A stretch of DNA of 20,038 bases from a virus: positions 1-20,038 of IMG/VR virus record IMGVR_UViG_3300017971_000881; one strand, written 5' to 3'. The notes beneath the pieces were generated by a model, which saw only the letters and a list, made by a program, of their open reading frames with translations, ran no database searches and had not been told where the DNA came from. A program made the translations under genes and the position numbers. Shown piece after piece: positions 12,939 to 19,884 of this stretch; positions within the stretch are counted from its first letter, which is position 1; every line of letters begins with the position of its first letter.

Positions 12939-14600
12939 TTAGATTACCTTGTCTTCTACGTCACCGCCCGATACTGCGCCTGCCGCCAACGGCAGTGCGA
13001 TCTCGGCGTAGTTGAAAGCGTGTGCGAAGTGGTCGGGGCCTGTGTTCAGGTAGACGGCCTTGGAGTTTCCTTGCTCATCCTTCTCGTACGTCCTGACGAG
13101 AGCCTTGATGTGGTCCTTGAATTCCAGCGACGTGTCGGCGGGCAGGTTGACTCGATCCGAGTGGAAACGCCCCATAGAGGCATCCAACCAGTTAGTTCTA
13201 TCCACCGTCACAATCGGTGCGCCACTGTCCTCCTCGGCGACTTGCATTTCCTTGCCTGTCACACCGCGTCGATACCGGCACAAGTAAACGTAGCCAGGGA
13301 AGCGGCGAGCAAAACGGCGGGCATCGTTGATCTGTGGGTCAGCGTCAATGACGGCCGCTCGAACTTGCCACTCCCGCATGAGCGGGTCTAACGTCTCGAA
13401 GTCGTCTCCGGGTAGTTTACCCTCCCACAAGATCTTGGCGTGGGAGGCCGCGTTGATGTCGATCTCTTGCCCGGCAAGTAGGAACTCGACAATGACGACG
13501 TTGTTCATCTTTCCTTGGTCAACGCCCATCACGATACAGCGTTCGGTTCCGATGTCCGGCCGTTGGTTCTCCTTGAAGTACGGTCGGATAGCGTGTTCGA
13601 TTTCGCCGTCCGTTACCTGTCCGCCGTCAGGGATGTAAGGTAAGCCCTGCTTTGAGTTGAAGAACTCGACCATGGCTGCTTCGTCACCGATGCCTCGGAA
13701 ATACGCGGCGGCGAGTTCCCATGGCTTGACCGTGTAACTGTACATCTGGTTGATGTAGAAGCTACGGTGGTCGTCGTCTACGGCGACTGTCGACTCCCAA
13801 AAGGCTTTCTTCAGGAAGTCAGGCTTCTCTTCGTGTTCGATTCGCTTCTTGCACTCCTTGCACTTCAAGTATGACTTCCTGATGTCGGGGTCGGTGATTC
13901 CTTCACCGCAGATCTCCAAGCAATCCGGAAAGATAAACTCGGTGTTCCGGCCACATCGTGGGCACTTGAAGTAGAAGTGCTCTTGTGTCCCTTGCAGGTA
14001 CAGCTTGTGGATGCCGAAGTTCGGGATGGTCGGCGTGCTCAAGCTGAACACGAACTTGTGCATCTGACCTGACAGACGCTCCAGGGCGAGCCAGATAGCT
14101 CGCTGGTCCATTTCGTCCGCCTCGTCGAGGATCAGGACGGAGACCGGGATCGACTTCAGGTTTGAGTCGCCTCGCGACCCACGGATGTACAAGTTCACTC
14201 CGCCCGCTTGCTTCAAGCCTACCGTGTTCGTGTCCGTGAACAGGTTGGCGAGGTACTCGCTATGCAGCAAGGCGGTGTTGAACCTGGACTTGCTGAAGTC
14301 GGACGCATTGAGGGCTGTGGGCAGCACGTACAACACGTCGCGCTTCAGTCGGTCGACCGTGTAGAACGCGACGTTGATCGCGACCTCGGTCAGACCCATC
14401 TGTGCCGACTTCATGATCGTGTTGAAGCCAGCGTTCGAGTCGTGTACCTCCCGACACCACGGGTGGTAGGTGAAGCTGTAAGGTCCGCTCAGGGGTTCGC
14501 CCATGACTCGGCGATTCACTACCCATCGGCTGCATGTACCGAGCGTGCTCGATATTAGCCCTTCCTTGAGCACATCGCCGAAGTCAGTGAGCAATCCCAT
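12939..14600 (-). CDS. terL: Terminase large subunit, lambda gpA-type
   Basis: This 553-aa ATP-driven DNA packaging motor and nuclease has the features of the GpA family. They are a deviant Walker A KSAQMGLTE (64-72), where gpA relatives have similar KSA-x-x-G-x-x-E/K loops; a Walker B VSVLILDEADEMD (153-165) with catalytic acidic residues; a coupling segment FSLSTPT (185-191); a two-part zinc motif CPRC (213-216) and CKEC (247-250); and a nuclease domain with GVDQG (D361) and AAVIDADP (D419, D421). Length is somewhat below lambda gpA (641 aa). The ATG at 14600 begins 7 bp after the upstream coiled-coil gene; its ribosome-binding site is weak. The portal gene follows after one base. The ATPase would sit at the portal vertex and cut packaged concatemers. 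Confidence 0.93.
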   Translation of the reverse strand: MGLLTDFGDVLKEGLISSTLGTCSRWVVNRRVMGEPLSGPYSFTYHPWCREVHDSNAGFNTIMKSAQMGLTEVAINVAFYTVDRLKRDVLYVLPTALNASDFSKSRFNTALLHSEYLANLFTDTNTVGLKQAGGVNLYIRGSRGDSNLKSIPVSVLILDEADEMDQRAIWLALERLSGQMHKFVFSLSTPTIPNFGIHKLYLQGTQEHFYFKCPRCGRNTEFIFPDCLEICGEGITDPDIRKSYLKCKECKKRIEHEEKPDFLKKAFWESTVAVDDDHRSFYINQMYSYTVKPWELAAAYFRGIGDEAAMVEFFNSKQGLPYIPDGGQVTDGEIEHAIRPYFKENQRPDIGTERCIVMGVDQGKMNNVVIVEFLLAGQEIDINAASHAKILWEGKLPGDDFETLDPLMREWQVRAAVIDADPQINDARRFARRFPGYVYLCRYRRGVTGKEMQVAEEDSGAPIVTVDRTNWLDASMGRFHSDRVNLPADTSLEFKDHIKALVRTYEKDEQGNSKAVYLNTGPDHFAHAFNYAEIALPLAAGAVSGGDVEDKVI

Positions 14601-14607
14601 GTCAGAC

Positions 14608-15018
14608 CTACTTCTCGGGTTTCTCTTCCTTGGCGGGCTTCTCCCGCTCTTTCGCCTTGGCTTCCGCTTCGGCCAGCTTGCGTTTCGCCTCGGCCTCGGC
14701 CTCTGCCAGCTTGGACTCGGCCTCCGCCTTGCGGACTCGCTCTGCCTCCATACGAGCGTCGTGGTCGGCCTTCTCCTGCTTCATCTTCACCTTGCAGTCG
14801 TAGTCTGCCGGGTTGAGCAGGCCCCACTCCTTCGTCCAGATGCGGGGCTCAGAGACGGAGTTGGCTTTGCACCGGCCCTTGTCGACGGGCTCGATCACCA
14901 TCTCCTCGACGCCCTCGGGCACTTCGATCTCGTGGCATGCTCCACAAACTCCAACGAGGCCATCAGGGCAGCGGAATCGAATGTGCGGCCAGTTGGGCCA
15001 AGGGTTAGCGATCTTCAC
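14608..15018 (-). CDS. Cys-motif and coiled-coil protein just upstream of the large terminase
   Basis: This is 136 aa from a GTG at 15018 with GGAG seven bases upstream; the start overlaps the previous gene by 14 bp. A longer frame to 15150 would overlap that gene far more and lacks a good ribosome-binding site. The N-terminal half has Cys at 17, 25, 28 and 50 (CPDGLVGVCGACHEI), a possible metal-binding site. Residues about 77-136 are a charged Ala/Glu/Lys helix with AEAEAK-type repeats, a strong coiled coil ending in KPEK. The slot directly before the large terminase is where small terminase genes often lie, so a packaging role is an alternative, but no helix-turn-helix is evident. I do not recognise a named family. 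Confidence 0.6.
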   Translation of the reverse strand: MKIANPWPNWPHIRFRCPDGLVGVCGACHEIEVPEGVEEMVIEPVDKGRCKANSVSEPRIWTKEWGLLNPADYDCKVKMKQEKADHDARMEAERVRKAEAESKLAEAEAEAKRKLAEAEAKAKEREKPAKEEKPEK

Positions 15019-15319
15019 GGCGGGGCTCCAGTAGCAGTAAGGGTGCGATTGTGAGAATGATCTCCAAGATGGCGGGCCAGTTCGCGAGGAACCAATCCCA
15101 CAGGTTCTGGAGCCATTCCTTCCAGTCCATGCCGATGAGTCCGTCGGCACGGTTCCACGGATTGACGTCGCGCTCGATGCGCTCGTTGAACTTTCGCAGT
15201 TGGACTTCGTCCTCGGCGAGTGCTTTGCACACGTCGCGTTGGTACTCGGTCATGCGTCCCGCGCGGTATTCACGGTCAGCTTGACGTCGAAGTTTCTTGC
15301 GTAGTTTGCTGAGTTTCAT
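15005..15319 (-). CDS. C-terminally anchored small membrane protein
   Basis: This is 104 aa from the ATG at 15319, which overlaps the stop of the 49-aa gene as ATGA; the coupling and the weak own ribosome-binding site support this start over upstream codons in the same frame. Residues 1-50 are a very basic and charged helix (MKLSKLRKKLRRQADREYRA). A Trp-rich amphipathic stretch follows (MDWKEWLQNLWDWFLANWP), then one hydrophobic segment (about 83-98, ILEIILTIAPLLLLE) and a charged tail. A single membrane anchor near the C-terminus with a cytosolic charged domain could suit a lysis accessory or membrane tether. The family is not recognised and function is unknown. Confidence 0.6.
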   Translation of the reverse strand: MKLSKLRKKLRRQADREYRAGRMTEYQRDVCKALAEDEVQLRKFNERIERDVNPWNRADGLIGMDWKEWLQNLWDWFLANWPAILEIILTIAPLLLLEPRREDR

Positions 15320-15465
15320 AGTTTTGGCTTTCTGCCCTGTGATTGGGCTACTGCAAGTCCTTGTTTGATGGCCTTCTTCTTGGCCCCTTTTCCCGTGTAG
15401 CACTTCCCTGATTTTCCGTACTTGAAGCCGGACTTGCCGTCCTTACTACATTTCTGAACTGGCAT
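15316..15465 (-). CDS. 49-aa basic protein (small conserved phage type)
   Basis: A short gene beginning at the ATG at 15465 with a GGAG site six bases upstream. The protein starts MPVQKCSKDGKSGFKYGKSG and continues KCYTGKGAKKKAIKQGLAVA, ending in a basic tail. Two Cys (6 and 22) lie in a Gly/Lys-rich turn region, followed by a basic helix AKKKAIKQGLAV. Many tailed phages carry a small protein of this pattern (KC-x-x-x-GK-x-G-x-K-x-G-x-x-GKCYT then KKKAIKQG), of unknown role. It overlaps the stop of the upstream membrane protein gene by 20 bp and the next start by 4 bp. The intact frame, ribosome-binding site and double overlap support it as real. Confidence 0.75.
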   Translation of the reverse strand: MPVQKCSKDGKSGFKYGKSGKCYTGKGAKKKAIKQGLAVAQSQGRKPKL

Positions 15466-15733
15466 CGTTATCTCCAATTGCGTCAAGTTCGGCGTACACC
15501 TTCAGGATCACGAGCATCCATACGTTTGAGAGCCCAACGATGAACAAATAGTGCAATGGGCCATACCAGAAGGAAGGCAGTGCAAGCCAGAAGCCCAAGC
15601 AGATCGGACAGTAGAGTACCCTCCACTGAAGGCGATCTCGGATGGTCGATGCGATCTCGCTCTCTGAGATCAAACACGCAAGCACGCCGACTGCTGCGGC
15701 GTGCTGTAGAGCGAGGATCAGGTAGTCGACCAT
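15446..15733 (-). CDS. Small membrane protein with CPICLGFW motif (DUF1360-like)
   Basis: This is a 95-aa hydrophobic protein. Segments near residues 3-21 (DYLILALQHAAAVGVLACL), 40-56 and 58-78 look membrane-embedded. The central motif YCPICLGFWLALPSF matches the CP-x-CLGFW pattern of small DUF1360-type membrane proteins found in phages and bacteria. The ATG at 15733 shares one base with the upstream TGA (TGATG); a TTG one codon earlier (15736) is an alternative that lies at a better distance from GGAG. The polar tail ends NDASSEM. It follows the exported thioredoxin-like gene and may belong to the same membrane-related unit. Its role is unknown. Confidence 0.7.
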   Translation of the reverse strand: MVDYLILALQHAAAVGVLACLISESEIASTIRDRLQWRVLYCPICLGFWLALPSFWYGPLHYLFIVGLSNVWMLVILKVYAELDAIGDNDASSEM

Positions 15734-16239
15734 CAATAGAGGTCTCCGGGGTCTTCATCTTGTTCGGGTTCCGGTGGCATGTGCTCTTCAACGAACTTGT
15801 CCACCTCTGCGACTGTTGCGGCGACCTTCAAGTAGATCATCTCACCCTTGTAGTGGACGACGATGGCAGGCACTGCTCTCAACTGCGGGCGTTCCTTTGC
15901 GTCCTTGTCCCAGTCCTTCACCACGACTGTGTAGCCAAGCTTCAGTAGAGCCGGTTTGACTCGGGCTTTGTAGGCTGGGCACTTTCTGCACCATCCTGCG
16001 GACCAGATGGTGACGGTGTAGCAGGACTTGTCGGTTCGTGGCTTGGGGTCTTCGGCCGACGTGTCAGACTTATATAGTCGTTGGCTATCGACAACAGGGA
16101 CTTCCACGCTTGAAACGACATGCCCTTGATTAGGACCGAGCGCAAGAGCCGCTTGAGTCGGAGCCAAAGCGGAATGAGCCGTAAGGAGGGCGAAAGCGAC
16201 ATAAACCGCTCCTGCAATTTCGAGTGATCTGCGTTTCAT
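15733..16239 (-). CDS. Exported thioredoxin-like protein with CRKC active site
   Basis: This is a 168-aa protein. Residues 1-26 form a signal peptide (basic MKRR, hydrophobic IAGAVYVAFALLTAHSALA with an A-x-A-type end). A linker of about 45 residues precedes a thioredoxin fold: YTVTIWSAGWCRKC (active-site Cys84 and Cys87 after Trp83), a helix KARVKPALLKLG, a strand TVVVKDWD, then AVPAIVV with the cis-Pro at 124, and a strand GEMIYLKVA. The acidic tail PPEPEQDED is likely disordered. Such a protein would exchange disulfides or thiols in the periplasm or outside. It starts 9 bp after the protease stop and is followed by a membrane protein overlapping by 1-4 bp. Direct adjacency to an exported cysteine protease suggests, but does not prove, that it keeps the protease thiol reduced. 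Confidence 0.8.
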   Translation of the reverse strand: MKRRSLEIAGAVYVAFALLTAHSALAPTQAALALGPNQGHVVSSVEVPVVDSQRLYKSDTSAEDPKPRTDKSCYTVTIWSAGWCRKCPAYKARVKPALLKLGYTVVVKDWDKDAKERPQLRAVPAIVVHYKGEMIYLKVAATVAEVDKFVEEHMPPEPEQDEDPGDLY

Positions 16240-16248
16240 GGTAAAACC

Positions 16249-17244
16249 CTAGTACAAAATGTAGGGAGTAATATCGACCCGTGGGAATCCCACATAGGCG
16301 CTGAAGGCGAACGAGTCACCCTGCCGGAGCATCGCGTCGACTGTGGCAGCATCGATCCAAAAAGTCCCCTCCGGTTGGGGGCCTCTCTTGGGACCGTAGA
16401 CCCAGTCCTCGCCCCACGAGTTGAAGCACAGGGCTCCGGGGCGGCGGTACTCGTCGTCGTAACCGGCAAACAGCATGGCGTGGTACCACGGCTTACGCTT
16501 GCGGGTCAGGAAGCCTTCTGAGTCGCGACGTCGCTTGCCACTGCCGAACCCGACATTCGAGCATACCATGACAGGCGAGCCGTTGTAAATGCAGTCGCAG
16601 AGGTCCGAATAGGACTTGCAAATGGCTGTTTTCTTCACCGGATGGAGCCGCGCGATCGGTTCGAGCGCGTCTGGGCAGCCATCTCGGCCCATTTCAACGG
16701 CTTTCGCCGCGCTGTACTGGGTGAAATCGTGCCCGGTCGGGTATTTCTGTCGCAGGAGCACGCCGTACTTCACGAGCCACTCGGCGGCCCAGTGTCCGGT
16801 CGATCCTCCGCCTCGGCCGGTGTATCCGCCGATCTCGACGCGAGAGCCGCCGTATATGGGCTCTGTGGCCGCTTTGGCGACCCAACGCTGCGGTAGCCGC
16901 TTCGTGACGATCTGGACGCCCTGGAGGACGTCTACGGCCAATGCAGCGGACTGGGAGACGCAATCTGGTGCTCCCTGGTCGTGCGGGACGTACTTTCGCC
17001 CCATAACTCGCTCCATCGCGAGGTGCAGGAAGGCTTTCTGGCCTTTTCCGCTACCTTTGATCGCCGCATTCATCTGCGAGATGAACGGGCGGCGATGTCG
17101 GCGGATGAAGTCTTCGAGGCTCTTGCGGTCCTGGGTCCATCCGAAACGCACGTCGGAGGTCATCGGGTTGGCCTGCACGAACGTCGGGAGGAGGAGGCCG
17201 CTTGCGGTCGCGGCGAGGGCTCTGAGGGCTGTCCTGCGGTTCAT
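16249..17244 (-). CDS. Exported papain-family (C1-like) cysteine protease
   Basis: This is 331 aa from the ATG at 17244. A GTG at 17322 in the same frame would overlap the upstream gene and bury the signal, so I reject it. The N-terminus MNRRTALRALAATASGLLLP looks like a twin-arginine-type signal with cleavage near VQA-NP. The catalytic apparatus of C1 peptidases can be placed: Gln90 and Cys95 in HDQGAPDCVSQSAA, His255 in WYHAMLFAGYDD, and Asn275 in CFNSWGEDW. The Gln-Cys spacing is one residue shorter than in papain. There is no obvious propeptide beyond residues 27-85. It may cut host envelope or surface proteins, act in lysis, or process virion proteins. It lies between exported PKD-like and thioredoxin-like genes. 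Confidence 0.82.
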   Translation of the reverse strand: MNRRTALRALAATASGLLLPTFVQANPMTSDVRFGWTQDRKSLEDFIRRHRRPFISQMNAAIKGSGKGQKAFLHLAMERVMGRKYVPHDQGAPDCVSQSAALAVDVLQGVQIVTKRLPQRWVAKAATEPIYGGSRVEIGGYTGRGGGSTGHWAAEWLVKYGVLLRQKYPTGHDFTQYSAAKAVEMGRDGCPDALEPIARLHPVKKTAICKSYSDLCDCIYNGSPVMVCSNVGFGSGKRRRDSEGFLTRKRKPWYHAMLFAGYDDEYRRPGALCFNSWGEDWVYGPKRGPQPEGTFWIDAATVDAMLRQGDSFAFSAYVGFPRVDITPYILY

Positions 17245-17285
17245 TCCGTTGCCTTTTCCGTCTGAATATCGTGATTTTCCGCTTT

Positions 17286-17996
17286 TCAGCTTGCTCTCAG
17301 GCCAGCAGCGATGTCTCTCCACACTTTTTCGTGGTCTTCGGGGCTCATAAGAGCGCCGGATTGGGTCATTTCCGCTAGTTTCGCGCCGATTCTATCGAGC
17401 ATGGGCTTCCAAGCCTCGATTCGGTCGCCCAAGACCTCTCGGTTGGCGGCTGCCGTGGCCCTGATCCAATCGGCGGGCTCATCCAAGGCATGGGCTCTTG
17501 CGGCGATTCCTTCAAAACTGACCGCCATCGCCTCGCGTTCGTCGGCCGGAAGTTCCATTTCCCAGTTCCAGAACGGAATCCACTCCGAAAAACTGTCCGA
17601 CTGCGGCGTGGCCGGAGGTCCAAGCACTTTCACCACATGCGTGACGACGTCGACTGTCCCGCCTTTGGCACACGCCACAATGAATCGATACTCGCCTGCG
17701 GTCCTCCCCGAAAAACATGCCCTCGCGCCCGCATCGTACGTCAGGAAATCAGTGACAGAGTCGGGAACCAGTAACCACTTGAAAGAATCAGCGGTCGACT
17801 CGGACACGTCCAGACGGACCAACTCACCAATACGTGCGGTAGATTGGGCGTGGAGGACAATCTTCGCCTCGCCTGCGTCCGATCTGACTGCAACGGCCGC
17901 AGGGCGTTCCTGCGGGCTTGAAGCGGGATCGGATTGGGCCAGAATGGGCGTGGTCAGCAGGAGAAGGCAGGCTAACGAGGCGATTCTACGGTTCAT
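17286..17996 (-). CDS. Exported PKD/Ig-like domain protein
   Basis: This is a 236-aa protein. A signal peptide covers residues 1-21 (MNRRIASLACLLLLTTPILA). Residues about 44-127 form a PKD/Ig-like beta-sandwich: AKIVLHAQSTARIGELVRLD, SADSFKWLLVPDS-type strands, then AGEYRFIVACAKGG and THVVKVLGP. After a Pro-rich hinge and an aromatic stretch (FSEWIPFWNWEMEL), the C-terminal half is helical (residues about 150-236, ending HEKVWRDIAAGLRAS). PKD-like domains bind proteins or polysaccharides outside the cell and are common in secreted proteins of Planctomycetes-type bacteria; a role in adhesion or as partner of the protease gene 41 bp downstream is inference. The ATG at 17996 has a GAGGA site and lies 7 bp after the upstream stop. 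Confidence 0.75.
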   Translation of the reverse strand: MNRRIASLACLLLLTTPILAQSDPASSPQERPAAVAVRSDAGEAKIVLHAQSTARIGELVRLDVSESTADSFKWLLVPDSVTDFLTYDAGARACFSGRTAGEYRFIVACAKGGTVDVVTHVVKVLGPPATPQSDSFSEWIPFWNWEMELPADEREAMAVSFEGIAARAHALDEPADWIRATAAANREVLGDRIEAWKPMLDRIGAKLAEMTQSGALMSPEDHEKVWRDIAAGLRAS

Positions 17997-18613: not shown

Positions 18614-18805
18614 TTATTGGACGATGGGTTCGGTCGTCAGGAACCGAAGGACGATGTTGAGGCCGCCCTGGACGGCCACGAGGATCGGGAGGACGTTCTG
18701 GTAGTCAGCCAGGAACTCCGATCCGGCGGCGTAACCAACGAGACCGGCCGTGAGGGCGATCAGGTTGAACCAGACGGTCTTCGACTTCAGAGGGGACTTG
18801 GGCAT
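18614..18805 (-). CDS. Holin-like small membrane protein
   Basis: This is a 63-aa protein. A short basic N-terminus (MPKSPLKSKT) leads into a hydrophobic segment (VWFNLIALTAGLVGYAAGS, 11-29). A polar turn (EFLADYQN) and a second hydrophobic segment (VLPILVAVQGGLNIVLRFL, 38-56) precede the end TTEPIVQ. The pattern KSKT-x-W-x-N plus two membrane helices and an end of the form NIVLRFLTTEPI is that of a common phage holin type, which would form holes in the inner membrane at lysis. The ATG at 18805 immediately follows the nuclease stop, so it is probably translated by coupling; its ribosome-binding site (GAAAGG) is inside that gene. No endolysin of a classic type is next to it. Confidence 0.75.
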   Translation of the reverse strand: MPKSPLKSKTVWFNLIALTAGLVGYAAGSEFLADYQNVLPILVAVQGGLNIVLRFLTTEPIVQ

Positions 18806-19210
18806 TTACTTTGGCCTTTCGAGGTAAAGGATAGCGGAGGCGAGAAGTTCAGGGCTGTCTTGGAACGCGCCGATGGCAGTGTTGCAGTAATGGCACAGGA
18901 GGCCCCGAACTTGACCACTCTTGTGGTCGTGGTCGACGCTCAGGCGTGATGTCCCGGCCCGACCCGAATCCTTCCGACCGCAGATGGCACACATGCCGCC
19001 TTGGGCCGCGTCGAGGCTATCGTACTCCTCGACGGTCATTCCGTATTGTGCTTTCAGGTTGGCTTTGAAGTTCTTCTCAGGTGAGCGTTGTTCGGCTCTT
19101 CGCGCCGAGCAGCATTCTCGACAGGTGCCTTGCAGGCCGTCAGTGGAGCGGGCGTCCTTGGTGAAGGCGGCCCGGGGTTTCGTGGTCTTGCAACGGCGGC
19201 ACTGCTTCAC
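18806..19210 (-). CDS. HNH nuclease, endonuclease VII family
   Basis: This is a 134-aa protein. An N-terminal double CxxC (Cys4, 7, 30, 33) forms a zinc ribbon. The C-terminal nuclease has CAICG (Cys73, 76), the catalytic LSVDHDHKSGQVRG segment (Asp92, His93, Asp94, His95) and LLCHYCN (Cys105, 108, Asn109). This Cys-x2-Cys ... DHDH ... RGLLC-x2-CN layout is the recombination endonuclease VII family, which resolves branched DNA; single-domain copies with an extra zinc ribbon are frequent in phages and may assist packaging or act as homing nucleases. The ATG at 19210 overlaps the upstream stop as ATGA, and the stop abuts the holin-like start. A role in clearing DNA branches before packaging fits the neighbours. 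Confidence 0.9.
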   Translation of the reverse strand: MKQCRRCKTTKPRAAFTKDARSTDGLQGTCRECCSARRAEQRSPEKNFKANLKAQYGMTVEEYDSLDAAQGGMCAICGRKDSGRAGTSRLSVDHDHKSGQVRGLLCHYCNTAIGAFQDSPELLASAILYLERPK

Positions 19211-19725
19211 GAGTTCTCCTTTGCTGCGATGGCCGCGACAATTTCCGTGCCAATCGCCTCAATGGCGTCGTCCACCGCGTGGGTATCCGGCGACGAGTCG
19301 ACGAACGGACGGATGTGCTTATCGATGATGCCGATCATATCTTGAGCGAGACTCATGAGGGCTCCCTTGTTGAGCAGGTTGCCCAGCTTGACGTCCATGG
19401 CGTGCGTGCTCGCGACCAGCTTCTCGATCTGTCCGGCGAGATCCTTCAATGCGGGTGTCGCGGCGATGAGTTCCGCCTCGCCCTCGCACTGGTTGATTCG
19501 ACGTTCGAACAGGGCTCGAAGGATCGCGATTTCGCCAACCAGCGACTTGATCCGATCTTGCTGAGCGTGACGTTCTGCGGGGTCACCGATCAGCTTGTTC
19601 GTAATCATGTACTGCTGGATGGCCTTGTTCGCTCCTTGGGACGAATGTTCGTCGCAATACCGGTAACCCGGCATCGCGTCGCGTTTGCATTGCCCGTAGG
19701 CCGTCACATGTTCGCACTGGCTCAT
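19207..19725 (-). CDS. Zinc-finger protein, candidate terminase small subunit
   Basis: This is 172 aa from the ATG at 19725, chosen because GAAGGAG lies five bases upstream; the frame extends to 19815 but without a ribosome-binding site and across a likely promoter. The N-terminus holds a C-x8-C-x10-C-x2-H motif (Cys4, Cys13, Cys24, His27), common at the start of phage small terminase and related DNA-binding proteins. The rest is mostly helical, including DRIKSLVGEIAILRALFER, a helix IEKLVASTHAMDVKL and GALMSLAQDMIGIIDKHI, which suits an oligomer. A small terminase would recognise the packaging site and feed DNA to the large subunit, but that gene is 4.6 kb away. A general DNA-binding role is the alternative. 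Confidence 0.7.
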   Translation of the reverse strand: MSQCEHVTAYGQCKRDAMPGYRYCDEHSSQGANKAIQQYMITNKLIGDPAERHAQQDRIKSLVGEIAILRALFERRINQCEGEAELIAATPALKDLAGQIEKLVASTHAMDVKLGNLLNKGALMSLAQDMIGIIDKHIRPFVDSSPDTHAVDDAIEAIGTEIVAAIAAKENS

Positions 19726-19744
19726 GATTGCTCCTTCTATCCCT

Positions 19745-19772
19745 ATTGTAGGCCAATCCGGCAGAATGTGAA
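19745..19772 (-). promoter_or_regulatory. Likely sigma-70-type promoter of the leftward operon
   Basis: On the minus strand TTCACA (19772-19767) and TACAAT (19750-19745) are spaced by 16 bp, each one mismatch from the bacterial consensus. The expected start near 19738 leaves a very short leader that is almost only the GAAGGAG ribosome-binding site before the ATG at 19725. Confidence 0.55.
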
Positions 19773-19804
19773 GACGAAAAACCGGAAAATCCCGCATTTT
19801 CGGC

Positions 19805-19884
19805 AAAATAGTCACAATCTGACCTCATTTTCGACTATTTTGACGCGTCAAGGCAAATCGCACGCCGAAAATCGCAAAAATCGC
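19805..19884. promoter_or_regulatory. Operator-like cluster of inverted and direct repeats
   Basis: A perfect 9-bp inverted repeat aaaatagtc/gactatttt (19805-19813, 19833-19841) is followed by the perfect 12-bp palindrome ttgacgcgtcaa (19840-19851). Next come three copies of aaatcgc (starting 19855, 19869 and 19878). The cluster lies just upstream of the likely promoter, so it may bind a regulator; an origin or packaging-site role is also possible. Confidence 0.5.

Follow-up and report, generated by a model that had tools for sequence, protein, structure and literature searches.

The window analysed here, the whole of a 20,038-base IMG/VR virus record, holds in its right half a block of genes that all lie on the minus strand. 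In the direction of transcription, the block comprises a gene in the position of the terminase small subunit (TerS), an endonuclease VII gene, a gene for a two-helix membrane protein, two short genes, the genes for a PKD partner, a protease and a thioredoxin, genes for small membrane proteins, and the genes for the terminase large subunit (TerL) and the portal. A preliminary description had singled out the three central genes as adjacent and co-directional, and their positions were verified: the predicted PKD-domain partner (236 aa) is encoded at 17286 to 17996, a predicted papain-family (C1-like) cysteine peptidase (331 aa) at 16249 to 17244, and a thioredoxin-fold protein (168 aa) at 15733 to 16239. 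The protease most likely starts at the ATG at 17244, within an open frame that itself opens at a GTG at 17322. All three proteins begin with a hydrophobic N-terminus (MNRRIASLACLLLLTTPILAQS in the PKD partner, MNRRTALRALAATASGLLLPTFVQA in the protease and MKRRSLEIAGAVYVAFALLTAHSALA in the thioredoxin), consistent with the signals predicted earlier; that of the protease appears to be of the twin-arginine (Tat) type, and that of the thioredoxin may be a signal or an anchor.

The syntenic block is anchored by the gene for a gpA-type TerL (12939 to 14600; Pfam GpA_ATPase, 1.4e-31; PHROG 675, 2.3e-91). At the upstream end lies a conserved gene (19207 to 19815; Pfam WRC below cut-off), which occupies the same place in the loci of many relatives and whose putative assignment as TerS comes from its place only. 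Between it and the two-helix membrane gene lies the endonuclease VII gene (18806 to 19210); such genes occur at varying spots within the block (also L006:2670-3149 and L016:4637-5299), as if mobile. The small two-helix membrane protein (18614 to 18805) belongs to a conserved family that precedes the trio in many related loci (alignment A10, 13 relatives); since its PHROG holin match reached only E 0.2, we infer its holin-like nature. Downstream of the trio, a small multi-helix membrane protein with a CPICLGFW motif (15446 to 15733) has a start that overlaps the thioredoxin stop and relatives downstream of thioredoxin in many loci, and a small protein with a C-terminal membrane helix (15005 to 15403), encoded before TerL, has relatives in most trio-lineage loci. 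Membrane or signal-bearing open reading frames made up 118 of 304 in the cassette region versus 15 of 164 from TerL on, as counted with a crude gene caller and with the cassette genes themselves included. Elsewhere in the window, a minus-strand gene at 684 to 947 encodes one membrane helix and a coiled coil, resembling BhlA/UviB-type holins by eye; similar genes adjoin the protease in L060, L062, L065 and L071.

Sequence-family scans of the window named neither the protease nor the PKD partner above cut-off. The protease scored 16.9 bits against Pfam PF00112 (cut-off, 20.7), a family that matched 7 of 56 protease relatives with an E-value of 0.01 or below (lowest, 6.8e-9). Across these 56 relatives, Gln90, Cys95, His255 and Asn275 were invariant and stood in the catalytic order of C1 peptidases. 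A structural model predicted from the same relatives (pLDDT 90) had xylellain as its best match (3ois; VIA Z 23.3, rmsd 2.8, 247 residues), with many papain and cathepsin entries at VIA Z of about 18 to 20. The protease is thus predicted to have a papain fold, and the papain-type set of Cys95, His255 and Asn275 proposed from the single sequence was upheld. In common with xylellain and the cathepsins, the modelled protein places its Cys at the start of a central helix (predicted to span 95 to 115), followed by His and then Asn (NSWG); it differs from them in having less than 20% identity to solved structures, in placing Gln 5 rather than 6 residues before Cys, and in being phage-borne with a Tat-type signal. 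A profile alignment to cathepsin K was discarded because it paired Cys95 with a Cys that we take to be non-catalytic.

Twin arginines followed by a hydrophobic stretch, as expected of Tat substrates, are present at the N-terminus of the window protease. An MxRRxxLK or similar start was seen in nearly all trio-lineage protease relatives, several of which carry the canonical DRRDFLK, and Pfam TAT_signal matched 7 of the 56. The sequences therefore favour the twin-arginine-type signal originally suggested. Another short protein, encoded in a related phage (L091:12782-13075), likewise starts with a Tat-type sequence (MKRRSFLRVIG). Protease genes split across two frames, through frameshift or sequencing error, were found at L021:4134-4400, L022:3705-4699 and L055:6001-7106.

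Inteins in the protease relatives gave independent evidence, as judged from sequence, for the active site. They were inserted immediately ahead of the catalytic Cys in L011, L013, L047, L049, L050/L052 and L053 (L010 has a fragment there), immediately behind the catalytic His in L085, and three residues past the catalytic Asn in L013, L021 and L048, so that the L013 protease carries two. The intein-bearing regions are L013:6913-10098, L047:3051-5219, L048:8001-10037, L049:6567-8735 and L052:2-2152, together with L053:7286-8785, L085:7983-10034, L021:2432-4303 and L011:500-1909. Their domains were recognised by Pfam Intein_splicing, Hom_end_hint or LAGLIDADG, and their ends were read in the sequences as a Cys at the start and GN or HN before Cys or Ser at the end. 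Inteins tend toward the most conserved sites of their host proteins; because the insertion sites adjoin the catalytic positions, they appear to mark the same three residues that the preliminary description had chosen.

Pfam returned no match for the PKD partner of the window and no PKD match in its relatives, 41 of which were aligned. An AlphaFold2 model (pLDDT 89) matched the PKD domain of ColG (4aqo; VIA Z 10.7, rmsd 2.2, 80 residues), with Ig-like folds close behind at Z 9 to 10. The beta-sandwich noted earlier, at about residues 41 to 126 behind the N-terminal signal, is accordingly predicted from structure, and not from sequence families, to be a PKD domain; the helical region C-terminal to it (136 to 235) belongs to no named family. 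The CRKC thioredoxin fold of the preliminary description was well supported: the CxxC (WCRKC in the window; C84 and C87) and cis-Pro (P124) were invariant in 46 relatives, Pfam Thioredoxin matched 37 of the 46 (best, 2.3e-15), and the profile matched thioredoxin-domain proteins in the PDB (best, 3e-25). Among the related loci, one has two tandem thioredoxin genes downstream of the protease (L050:1849-2268 and 2220-2837). A small conserved protein with a WRRFVVWLR start lies between the protease and a signal-less thioredoxin at L034:2365-2607, with genes of this type also in L009, L011, L030, L031, L033, L039, L040, L042, L044, L053 and L086, and is fused to thioredoxin in L010:856-1410.

We then scanned IMG/VR with the protease alignment and found 197 relatives, 80 of which were retrieved. 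Synteny was counted over loci that held both the protease and TerL, with near-copies pruned by hand to 46. The PKD gene lay upstream of the protease in all 40 loci with enough sequence (within 150 bases in 36), and thioredoxin lay between the protease and TerL in 45 of 46, while the remaining block genes come and go. Co-occurrence and order are thus conserved in related phages, and the trio in the window is no accident of one contig. The phage group carrying the cassette is widespread but uncultured, with the putatively exported set fixed beside the DNA-packaging genes. Among 50,697 records of isolated phages, no protein matched the window protease or its relative on pPLIM01, the phage-plasmid of Planctopirus limnophila. 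Close protease relatives occur in two Mucilaginibacter genomes (L087:7926-8888 and L088:7896-8822), with no evident phage genes around them. Chloroflexota, considered as host on account of a contig from an Anaerolinea MAG (L086), was rejected; this contig was the single strong match among 400 genomes of the phylum and is therefore likely of phage origin and binned with the MAG.

More distant protease relatives lack both thioredoxin and the Tat-type start, some having a plain start and some a membrane anchor, and often lie beside a small putative holin-like gene. Many of them are preceded by genes for a small membrane protein and a signal-bearing partner. Homology to the PKD/helical protein was found for some of these partners (set A8; hhalign, 97%), while the probability for the small partners (A9) was 9%. 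On pPLIM01, as in the window, a PKD/helical partner (PLIM_RS21795; hhalign, 98.7%) lies directly upstream of a remote protease relative (PLIM_RS21800; 22.7% identity, profile E 2e-21) and near TerL. The pPLIM01 set differs in that its partner has an extra N-terminal membrane segment, its protease has an anchor in place of the Tat-type signal, and there is no thioredoxin; comparison of the holin-like gene with the N-terminus of PLIM_RS21795 gave an hhalign value of 9%. The core, PKD/helical partner plus protease, is thus older than the trio, and thioredoxin belongs to one lineage only. The proposal that the three proteins form one functional unit fared poorly, since the distant phages and pPLIM01 keep a membrane or exported partner with the protease and do without thioredoxin.

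Searches for peptidoglycan hydrolases covered contigs that may be incomplete and would miss divergent enzymes. Within this scope, Pfam Amidase_2, Phage_lysozyme, SLT, M23, M15_4, CHAP and NlpC/P60 were found in none of 35 to 38 related contigs, Pfam scans detected no hydrolase among most of the proteins of pPLIM01 (47 CDS), and two large related contigs (123 proteins) yielded none in the 25 of 28 families listed. As a control, we used 33 IMG/VR contigs at least 20 kb long that had been drawn by matching short arbitrary DNA patterns; Amidase_2 was found in 1 of them and SLT in 5. Because matches were rare in random contigs, failure to find a single family says little; for the two families together, the difference was 6 of 33 controls versus 0 of 35 related contigs (one-sided p about 0.01, ignoring the relatedness of the contigs). 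The hydrolase deficit is suggestive, not strong.

Taken together, gene order, folds, invariant residues, intein placement and the lack of detected hydrolase families form the basis for reading these genes as a conserved host-lysis cassette, to which we assign a probability of about 0.5. A papain-family cysteine peptidase would occupy the usual place of the peptidoglycan-hydrolysing endolysin, and its substrate would be an envelope protein or a peptidoglycan peptide. In the trio lineage, the Tat-type signal implies that the protease would fold in the cytoplasm before export, whereas in the distant relatives the protease has no signal, or an N-terminal membrane anchor, and often has a small holin-like gene as its neighbour. 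Whether exported or anchored, the PKD/helical partner probably serves to tether the enzyme to the envelope or to position it there. The thioredoxin-like protein would have been gained in a single event or a few at the most, and probably acts on disulfides either in the protease or in its target. As in lambda S-R-Rz type cassettes, a holin-like protein and an envelope-directed hydrolase appear, from the genes alone, to be grouped near terminase genes; here, however, the hydrolase is a papain-like peptidase and no known muralysin, a PKD partner and thioredoxin are added, and in one lineage the enzyme has its own Tat-type signal. Holin-independent export would be expected, as for SAR and Sec-exported endolysins, from which the window protease differs in its Tat-type signal and its fold. 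Holin family matches for the small membrane genes near the protease were weak, and their assignments follow topology. The Mucilaginibacter relatives, in no evident phage context, are a point against a role in lysis. So is the peptidoglycan now known from planctomycetes (PMC4432640), since a protease and nothing more would have to cleave the peptides of this polymer or have the help of other enzymes.

In the preliminary description, thioredoxin was proposed to act outside the cytoplasm with the other two proteins and to keep the protease active as its redox partner, in the service of lysis or of a block to superinfection. The envelope and lysis setting was supported. Nothing found here spoke for superinfection exclusion, and both genomic context and the lack of detected peptidoglycan hydrolases in the contigs searched favour lysis. 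A role outside lysis, in early envelope remodelling, superinfection exclusion or as a virion-associated protease, is somewhat unlikely. Export or anchoring of the proteins would suit it, as would the PKD domain, whose fold is frequent among surface proteins, and some phage exclusion proteins are likewise exported; but the cassette sits between TerS-like or holin-like genes and TerL, its neighbours are putatively holin-like, and no endolysin candidate was seen elsewhere in the loci and contigs covered. The redox unit itself seems unlikely. All three window proteins have N-terminal signals, nearly all Tat-type proteases have a neighbouring thioredoxin, and no protease whose start is complete but non-Tat has one. 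However, both traits follow the phylogeny and can be accounted for by only one or two changes, so that their association amounts to little more than a single event. In a well-supported subclade inside the Tat lineage (tree support 98/96), moreover, thioredoxin lacks a signal while the proteases keep the Tat motif; it cannot simply act there as an extracytoplasmic reductant, which weakens the redox-partner proposal. A lock between Cys95 and the conserved Cys228 as the reason for thioredoxin was rejected, as Cys228 is conserved in most relatives without thioredoxin too.

Within the lysis reading, the protease may cut peptidoglycan peptides in the manner of NlpC/P60 or CHAP, as an ordinary endolysin of unfamiliar sequence, a case we consider rather improbable. 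The lack of detected hydrolases in related contigs and the peptidoglycan now found in planctomycetes, including P. limnophila (PMC4432640), are in its favour. Yet the modelled fold and the NSWG motif are those of C1 proteases, closest to xylellain and the cathepsins, and no cell-wall binding domain was seen. Alternatively, protease and thioredoxin may together breach a protein layer that disulfides stabilise in planctomycete-like hosts, proteolysis and reduction replacing peptidoglycan hydrolysis. Planctomyces envelopes have been reported to consist of SDS-resistant, disulfide-stabilised protein with a high content of proline and cysteine (PMC3035269), and pPLIM01 places a remote protease relative in a planctomycete; but pPLIM01 has no thioredoxin, and the old protein-wall model has been revised (PMC4432640). 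Since peptidoglycan has been found in these bacteria, we do not adopt protein-wall attack as the main reading and regard it as quite unlikely.

The literature that we searched contained no described role of papain-class enzymes in phage lysis. If the lysis reading is true, a large uncultured phage group would open its hosts with such an enzyme. The cassette would also make testable how phages open planctomycete-type envelopes, whose protein layer and peptidoglycan are the subject of a long debate, and P. limnophila with pPLIM01, a cultured host with a sequenced phage-plasmid, could be used as a test system.
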